Part shown: positions 40,256 through 41,466 of the stretch, piece after piece
Position numbering within the stretch: position 1 is the stretch's first letter
How the letters are laid out: each line of letters begins with the position of its first letter
Origin: Salidesulfovibrio onnuriiensis
Lineage (GTDB): Bacteria > Desulfobacterota > Desulfovibrionia > Desulfovibrionales > Desulfovibrionaceae
Assembly: GCF_008001235.1 (NCBI RefSeq)
Contig: NZ_CP040751.1
Coordinates: 2,215,001-2,279,000, forward strand
Direction of reading: 5' to 3'
DNA: 64,000 bases
Program-made: the position numbers and the translations under genes
The notes under the pieces: generated by a model
What the model saw: the letters and a program-made list of their open reading frames with translations, nothing else
Database searches by the model: none
Told to the model about the DNA's origin: nothing

Positions 40256-40411
40256 TCACCTTTCACTTTCCTTGTCAGCTTTCGTTTTTTTGCGGGGCGT
40301 CCAGCCGCACTTTCCGGTCATTCAGCCGCGCAGTTTGAGCCGTGGGGCCACGAAGAACCCCACGGCCAGGGCTATGCAAATATACAGGAAGGTGAGTAGA
40401 ACTCCCTTCAT
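40256..40411 (-). CDS. Putative membrane selenoprotein micro-gene, copy 2 (in-frame TGA at codon 30)
   Basis: The frame from ATG 40411 encodes a 29-residue single-helix peptide (MKGVLLTFLYICIALAV, then VAPRLKLRG) up to TGA at 40324-40322. It then continues in frame as MTGKCGWTPRKKTK plus a charged tail to TGA 40258-40256, 51 residues if the first TGA is read as selenocysteine (U30, with C35 next). The ATG overlaps the read-through stop of copy 1 as ATGA. A hairpin with loop UGGAC lies 18 bases after the TGA. If TGA is a true stop, the gene is just 40322-40411. Sequence shows duplication and frame conservation; Sec insertion is inferred. Function unknown, perhaps membrane-anchored thiol/selenol redox. 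Confidence 0.55.
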
Positions 40412-40560
40412 TGCTTGTTCTCTTTATCCTTGGGCGGCGTCCAGCCGCAGCTGTTCTTTGCGCCCTGTCACTTGCCGCTGAGCCCCAGCTTCGGGGCCAG
40501 CCAGGTGATGGCAAAGTAACCCGCTGCGAAACAGCCGAGCAGAATCAGCAATTCTTTCAT
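40408..40560 (-). CDS. Putative membrane selenoprotein micro-gene, copy 1 (in-frame TGA at codon 31)
   Basis: The frame from ATG 40560 has a strong AGGAGG site that overlaps the purC stop. It encodes one membrane helix (MKELLILLGCFAAGYFA), then APKLGLSGK, then TGA at 40470-40468. The same frame continues QGAKNSCGWTPPKDKENKQ to TGA 40410-40408, giving 50 residues with U31 and C38. It aligns with copy 2 in helix, AP(K/R)LxLxG motif, TGA position and CGWTP. A GCGGC(UGGAC)GCCGC hairpin lies 24 bases after the TGA. Without read-through the gene would be 40468-40560, 30 residues. I do not recognise the family. It probably belongs to a purC transcript. Confidence 0.6.
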
Positions 40561-40569
40561 GGCGCCCTC

Positions 40570-41466
40570 CTAGATGTCCAGGTCGCTCCCTGTCAGCAGG
40601 CGGTAGGCCTCGATGTATTTGGAGCGGGTCTGGGCGTTGATGTCCTCGGGGATGGCGGGTCCCGGAGGCTGCTTGTTGAAACCGATGTCCATCAGCCAGT
40701 CGCGCAGGAACTGCTTGTCGAAGCTGGGTTGACCCGCGCCCGGCTTATATCCTTCCATGGGCCAGAAGCGGGAGGAGTCCGGGGTGAGCACCTCATCTAT
40801 GAGAATGAGGCGGTCGCCTATGGTGCCGAACTCGAACTTGGTGTCCGCGATCAGGATTCCGCGCTTCTTTGCATAGTCGCGAGCTCTGGAATAGATGTCC
40901 AGAGAAAGTTTTTCGACCTTGCGCATCATGTCTTCGCCAAGAAGCGTCGCCGCCTTTTCCAGGGTGATGTTCTCGTCATGCTCGCCCAGTTCCGCCTTGG
41001 TGGATGGCGTGAATATCGGCTTTTCCAACATTTCGGATTCCTGGAGATTTTCCGGGAGCTTGTGCCCGCAGACATTGCCTGTTTTTTGGTAATCGCTCCA
41101 GCCGGATCCGGTGATGAAGCCGCGAACGATGCATTCGATGGGCAGGGGCTTGGCCTTTTTCACCAGCACTGCGCGGCCCTCGAGCTGGTCGCGATACGCC
41201 CTGAGCGGTTCGGGGAAATCGTCCACTTCTGAGGCGATGATATGGTTTTCCACCATATCGCCCATCATTTCCATCCAGAACAGGGTGATCTGGTTGAGCA
41301 CCACGCCTTTCTGGGGGATGGGATCGGGCATGACCACGTCATAGGCCGAGATGCGGTCCGAGGTGACGATGAGCAGGGTTTCCTCGTCGATGTCGTAGAT
41401 GTCCCTGACCTTGCCGCGCGAGAGCAGCGGGTAGTTCTTGATGTCGGTCTGGATGACGGTTTTCAT
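40570..41466 (-). CDS. purC: SAICAR synthase (phosphoribosylaminoimidazole-succinocarboxamide synthase)
   Basis: A 298-residue ligase that joins CAIR and aspartate in purine synthesis. The family signature VRGFITGSGWSDYQKTG is present with LPIECIVRGF, and the ATP loop RGKVRDIYDIDEETLLIV lies at the N-terminus. IADTKFEFG and LIDEVLTPDSSRFW follow. The length suits the longer form of the family. It lies 47 bases after hisD and ends on the ribosome site of the first micro-gene. Confidence 0.96.
   Translation of the reverse strand: MKTVIQTDIKNYPLLSRGKVRDIYDIDEETLLIVTSDRISAYDVVMPDPIPQKGVVLNQITLFWMEMMGDMVENHIIASEVDDFPEPLRAYRDQLEGRAVLVKKAKPLPIECIVRGFITGSGWSDYQKTGNVCGHKLPENLQESEMLEKPIFTPSTKAELGEHDENITLEKAATLLGEDMMRKVEKLSLDIYSRARDYAKKRGILIADTKFEFGTIGDRLILIDEVLTPDSSRFWPMEGYKPGAGQPSFDKQFLRDWLMDIGFNKQPPGPAIPEDINAQTRSKYIEAYRLLTGSDLDI

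Follow-up and report, generated by a model that had tools for sequence, protein, structure and literature searches.

Two tandem micro-genes of Salidesulfovibrio onnuriiensis as candidate members of a phylum-wide family of single-helix membrane selenoproteins

Two small, seemingly truncated tandem genes next to purC in the genome of Salidesulfovibrio onnuriiensis are best explained, with a high degree of confidence, as encoding SECIS-dependent selenoproteins of about 50 residues, predicted products of a family that extends through the phylum of their host. They lie in the window, by which we mean the whole 64,000-nucleotide stretch of DNA analysed here (G000:C1:2215001-2279000, from a host genome that consists of one contig of 3,886,744 bases). 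An earlier note on this DNA had proposed a new small membrane selenoprotein family from the two frames; to that proposal the comparisons described here add that both window copies belong to a predicted phylum-wide family of ~50-residue proteins, that this family appears to be nearly Sec-only, and that its members carry a SECIS-like hairpin and include some with two in-frame TGA codons. The parts of the two micro-genes are as follows.

40408..40560, minus strand: copy 1, candidate selenoprotein of 50 residues with Sec31 and Cys38; stop codon included
40256..40411, minus strand: copy 2, candidate tandem paralogue of 51 residues with Sec30 and Cys35; stop codon included
40468..40470, minus strand: Sec31 TGA of copy 1; the same codon is TGA in 94/95 members and TGC in 1
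40322..40324, minus strand: Sec30 TGA of copy 2, with an ATG immediately 3' in the sequence
40566..40571, minus strand: AGGAGG as Shine-Dalgarno word of copy 1, sharing bases with the stop codon of purC
40432..40465, minus strand: SECIS-like hairpin of copy 1 in the minimum-energy fold, apical stem CAGC/GCUG, loop UGCG; passes the SECIS criterion
40291..40309, minus strand: weak, interrupted hairpin of copy 2, with alternative folds; fails the SECIS criterion

Each copy consists of one membrane helix, an in-frame TGA and then CGWTP and a charged tail, an arrangement that the earlier note had described and that sequence and translation bear out. Copy 1 (minus 40560-40408) has 30 sense codons ahead of a TGA at codon 31, followed by a CGWTP that holds Cys38, and the order after its helix is APKLGLSGK, TGA (40470-40468), QGAKNSCGWTPPKDKENKQ, final TGA (40410-40408); copy 2 (minus 40411-40256) has 29 sense codons, its TGA at codon 30 and a CGWTP that holds Cys35, in the order APRLKLRG, TGA (40324-40322), MTGKCGWTPRKKTKADKESER, final TGA (40258-40256). 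The noted codon positions of the two TGAs are thus as found in the sequence, and the U31-C38 and U30-C35 spacings are those of the translations. The ATG of copy 1 is at 40560, nine bases from the purC stop, and the strong AGGAGG claimed for it was found at 40571-40566. Copy 2 starts inside the final stop of copy 1, in the ATGA of 40411-40408; this overlap is present and fits read-through, but the assertion that it is expected only from read-through was overstated. Downstream of copy 2 lies a ribosomal operon (S6, S18 and L9, which like purC were named from their translations).

A tblastn search with the read-through sequence of copy 1 gave matches at E<=0.1 in 76 of 197 genomes, its own included, with a TGA inside 71 of the 83 matches among those listed; the other 12 (11 with no stop, one with TAG), none of which has an E value better than 0.009, could be chance matches. 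A1, an alignment of 30 rows, combines both window copies with 28 of 31 loci (L002 being replaced by the window, and the spurious L020 and the duplicate L032 left out), and in it Met1, Sec31, Cys38 and Trp40 are invariant. The A1 profile found only the two window copies as standing out in their own genome (next match E 0.05), and at E<=0.01 it was positive in 163/348 genomes of the order and in 167/395 genomes sampled across the phylum. Among the order-level matches listed, six rows have no TGA in the match. One, from G070, has Cys; the other five, all from one genus, are partial and stop short of the Sec site, and one of these five was retrieved (G343, locus L083) and has TGA there. Forty phylum-level loci were also retrieved, 20 of which had been listed as partial matches without TGA, and a TGA is found behind the helix in 40/40, although L139, a doubtful member scoring 23.8 bits, has it displaced and lacks a Cys after it. 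A further profile, A3, built from 63 rows hand-chosen from 95 members, was positive at E<=0.001 in 177/395 phylum genomes, with TGA in 150/150 matches among those listed; A3 leaves out every second tandem copy and most of the members that lack a nearby Cys, so its invariant Cys is partly a matter of choice, and the unselected figures are those of the 95 distinct members. Row counts for the tblastn and A3 listings were tallied by eye, and because the multi-genome searches scored only ~17-19 candidates per genome, all of these prevalence figures are lower bounds. A pattern scan of genome contigs turned up one close relative, and none was found in the plasmids, phages and viral contigs searched. 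A local sequencing fault, which the earlier note had named as a way in which its claim could fail, can be rejected for the TGA, as can chance, since the TGA recurs in homologues across the order and the phylum and is matched by a Cys codon at the same site in L073.

The 95 distinct members were extracted from all fetched loci with a profile that scores TGA and Cys codons alike, and the codon at the Sec site is nonetheless TGA in 94 of them and TGC (Cys) in one. The next in-frame stop is distributed almost evenly (TGA 33, TAG 32, TAA 30). A Cys stands 5, 6 or 7 residues past the Sec site in 31, 26 and 28 members respectively (85/95) and 9-18 residues past it in four more, and six have none before the next stop; the U...C pair that the earlier note placed beside the helix is therefore present in both window copies and is not universal in the family, 10/95 members having no nearby Cys. 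Homologues with TGA or Cys at the same codon were expected and found; conservation of CGWTP, expected along with them, holds for only part of the family, C-x-W occurring in 49/89 of the members that have a Cys and the tail outside the window's order often being S-C-x-x-x-x-R instead of C-G-W-T-P-P. Conservation in frame past the TGA is otherwise evident from the invariant Cys38 and Trp40 of A1, from the recurrent spacing of the Cys and from a tail pN/pS of 0.45 in frame vs 1.03 and 1.82 in the other frames (125 pairs, not mutually independent), the 20 codons ahead of the TGA having a pN/pS of 0.79 over the same pairs. An SD-like word precedes 81/95 members. The one Cys form that was found, L073:5936-6127 (minus), belongs to a genome that retains selA.

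A competing reading takes the TGA as a true stop codon, with a helix of 29-30 residues as its product and an RNA element or a reinitiated second peptide in the remainder. Such a reading could draw on the ATG right after the TGA of copy 2, on the start-like codon (ATG, CTG or GTG) in that position in 25/94 members and on the conserved RNA structure of the downstream region. Against it stand the 69/94 members in which no such codon follows, so that reinitiation cannot explain the family, as well as the in-frame constraint on the tail, an invariant TGA at odds with the free stop usage downstream and the Cys codon of L073. We have rejected it for the family on the grounds of tail constraint, invariant TGA and scarcity of start-like codons, and regard it overall as very improbable; reinitiation may apply to copy 2 alone, given the ATG after its TGA and its failure of the hairpin criterion.

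The RNA downstream of the TGA points toward selenocysteine insertion. Bacterial SECIS elements were recognized by an approximate criterion: a stem of at least 4, a loop 16-37 nt past the TGA and a G as the first or second base of the loop. With that stem length, a hairpin is present in the minimum-energy fold of 86/94 members vs 23.6% of synonymous recodings, and downstream of 212/1402 Cys codons (15%) in long frames of the same loci, which served as controls; with a stem of at least 3, 88/94 members pass vs 28% of dinucleotide shuffles. In most members the loop starts 16-26 nt past the UGA, and the stability of the folds is modest (mean energy z -1.03, 48/94 below -1). The stem also covaries in a set of 17 sequences: its covariation score is 0.470 vs 0.226 +/- 0.037 and its share of paired cells 80.7% vs 65.5%, values that 0/500 shuffles reach in either case, and in the same 17 Cys-anchored sequences changes on both sides are seen in 6/7 stem pairs, while slid stem registers score 0.082-0.235. 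Two of the five covariation measures, both counting measures, are weaker, with 28 and 86 of the 500 shuffles attaining their respective values. The covariation set comprises 17 of 19 peptide-motif sequences, with L085 and L137 dropped after inspection and the register set by eye, and both of these choices favour structure. As listed above, copy 1 passes the hairpin criterion and copy 2 fails it; the case for copy 1 is strong, and copy 2 has a weak hairpin. A second copy similar to copy 2 is also present in G021 (locus L003), and that one folds well.

The host genome contains what is needed for decoding. The earlier note had asked for the Sec machinery, and selA, selB, a tRNA-Sec (84.6 bits, anticodon UCA) and a selD with one in-frame TGA (C1:1015077-1016003) are all there, so that UGA is very probably read as Sec elsewhere in this genome. 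The selA gene (G000:C1:2200939-2202306) and the SelB C-terminal domain (2207327-2207464) lie ~8-14 kb before the window start, some 50 kb from the micro-genes. Across the phylum SelB was found in 347/395 genomes, and A1-positive genomes make up 158/347 of those with SelB vs 9/48 of those without (Fisher p 5e-4). A SelB match accompanies 168/177 A3-positive genomes (overlaps of SelB and family were tallied by eye), and the nine family-positive genomes without one (completeness 66-98%, the same nine with A1 and with A3) all carry selA above the cut-off; among the 177 positives, no family-positive genome without Sec machinery was found. Many SelB-positive genomes show no member (168/347 are family-positive, with a limited number of candidates scored per genome). 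In one genus, g40, 11/11 sampled genomes are SelB-positive and no family member was found; this absence is either loss or a limit of the search, and the pattern counts against a simple rule that SelB implies the family. Taking the 94/95 TGA codons, the hairpin, the in-frame constraint on the tail and the Sec machinery together, we strongly infer from sequence that SelB and tRNA-Sec decode the family UGA as selenocysteine, as the earlier note had proposed, and that both window frames are candidates for SECIS-dependent selenoproteins.

Members begin with a very short N-terminal stretch that leads into one hydrophobic helix; a [P/R][K/R]-L-G-like motif, the UGA, usually a Cys, and a charged tail come after it. 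A mean of 29 residues precede the UGA, which thus falls at about codon 30, just past the helix. The most hydrophobic 17 residues average >=1.6 on the Kyte-Doolittle scale in 94/95 members, and Lys and Arg are in excess on the C side of the helix in 93/95, so that by the positive-inside rule the proteins would be oriented N-out/C-in, with Sec only a few residues away from the membrane on its cytoplasmic side. No fixed partner gene was found phylum-wide in the gene context of 56 loci and the 76 neighbours scanned. In the neighbour scan itself, 43 loci gave 163 neighbour ORFs, called mechanically and including spurious antisense ORFs, of which 76 were scanned; each of the 25 of 99 families listed is confined to 4 or fewer of the 76, DsbD-type membrane proteins being found in 3 and thioredoxins in 2, a weak hint at thiol redox. 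At L107, L112 and L118, in genomes of different families, a DsbD/CcdA-type gene adjoins the micro-gene, within one gene cluster common to all three. Several loci from the window's own taxonomic family have the micro-gene by the same purine and replication genes as in the window. With no fixed neighbour found, a family member probably works on its own or together with a housekeeping partner.

What such a protein would do may be pictured as a stand-alone membrane selenol-thiol redox peptide. In the mechanism we prefer, to which we would give slightly better than an even chance, the selenolate would attack a peroxide, polysulfide, disulfide or membrane partner, a selenenylsulfide would then close between Sec and the following Cys, and a cytosolic thiol system would re-reduce it; when Sec is not supplied, termination would leave just the helix of 29-30 residues. 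That last feature could also serve a true selenoprotein that, as a subunit gated by selenium, regulates a membrane complex: the tail would be made and would dock when selenium is available, and only the helix would be left when it is not. Single-helix micro-proteins often regulate membrane complexes, and a UGA placed just past the helix means that termination leaves the helix complete; the lack of a fixed partner gene at the 56 loci and 76 neighbours argues against this idea, which we think unlikely while giving it some weight. Somewhat less likely again is that Sec and Cys, in what is still a true selenoprotein, have no redox turnover and instead handle metals or metalloids at the membrane, binding or detoxifying them. 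A selenol-thiol pair is soft and would have affinity for Hg, As or Cd, and the family, to judge from taxonomy, is frequent in anaerobes of sulfidic settings; yet most members have only one Cys to go with the Sec, and among the 25 neighbour families listed there is no metal-resistance family except for one AcrB-type transporter. The redox peptide remains the reading we favour.

The family is new to the protein-family libraries, as the earlier note had supposed, in that no NCBIfam or Pfam match reached the cut-off, and membership in a known family was rejected on the basis of these libraries and the NF049953 profile. NCBIfam gave no family for the two window proteins (E<=1) or the 30 A1 members (E<=0.1), and for 8 divergent members three sub-threshold ATP synthase or FtsB matches only (E 0.11-0.23); Pfam gave sub-threshold matches only for the window copies, the 30 A1 members and the 8 divergent members. 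PF12669, the FeoB-associated Cys-rich membrane proteins, comprises proteins of about 50 residues with one N-terminal helix and a Cys-containing tail. The candidate family is similar in size, helix and Cys tail to that general description, but no profile match rose above the cut-off: the best E was 0.032, in 2/30 A1 members, with none in the 8 divergent members, and no FeoB family is among the 25 neighbour families listed. The likeness to bacterial SECIS-dependent selenoproteins lies in the in-frame UGA, the hairpin just downstream, the Sec machinery and the Cys near Sec. SELENOS and SELENOK, for which Pfam holds models, are likewise small or disordered single-pass membrane proteins with Sec near the C-terminus, whereas they are far longer, eukaryotic and ER-bound; no Pfam selenoprotein model matched the window copies, the 30 A1 members or the 8 divergent members, and the resemblance is likely one of analogy, not homology. 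According to the available text of PMC10298544, SELENOS shows disulfide reductase and peroxidase activity in vitro, and an internal selenenylsulfide can form in it.

In the accessible part of the 2026 catalogue (PMC13188914), which gives 119 prokaryotic selenoprotein families or subfamilies and includes in its table families credited to Haft and Tolstoy 2025, none of those listed is a single-helix family of ~50 residues with U-x(4-6)-C, and most of those listed have the size of enzymes, Cys homologues being common among them, whereas in this family Cys takes the Sec site in 1/95 members. The consulted sections of the deep-Sep study (PMC12013277) count 10 known selenoprotein genes and no new ones in Salidesulfovibrio onnuriiensis IOR2 (GCA_008001235.1), predict NF049953 (Sec 'hypothetical protein DG') and other small Sec proteins in related sulfate reducers, note that all known selenoproteins now seem to have Cys homologues, and state that the method may miss selenoproteins that lack them. 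The NF049953 profile (172 positions) gave no match in the host genome, a weak test in that its control likewise matched nowhere. No earlier description was found in the accessible portions of the literature searched, including PMC1914089, PMC5029168, PMC8318568, PMC2398784 and PMC10298544 (subscription papers, preprints and supplements being outside its scope), and the family seems undescribed so far. With moderate confidence we would go further and see in it the first essentially Sec-obligate selenoprotein family, one of micro-selenoproteins with a single helix that occur throughout the phylum, escape gene finders and screens based on Cys homologues, and place a selenol-thiol pair on the cytoplasmic membrane face of sulfate reducers and their kin; it would be a convergent bacterial counterpart of SELENOS/SELENOK, with two Sec in some members. 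If true, this family, absent from the libraries and from the accessible part of the 2026 catalogue (PMC13188914), would rank with the more widespread selenoproteins in the phylum (177/395 sampled genomes, a lower bound). It would also give the study of membrane selenol chemistry a model of 50 residues, and a direct way to test why Sec persists with almost no Cys replacement.

The six members that have no Cys before the next stop are L120, L124, L129, L139 (the doubtful one) and, in each of G063 and G115, the second tandem copy. The two second tandem copies (L008 and L074) keep the TGA with no Cys after it and share the motif ..UMPxPPDVWETP; they are perhaps decaying or in another role. For L120, L124 and L129 the next stop is again TGA, ~26 residues past the first, and a DGPxCxIGGQSKK-like tail with a Cys follows this second TGA. 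A hairpin is found after both TGAs in L124 and is clear after the second in L129, and in L120 the second TGA folds otherwise.
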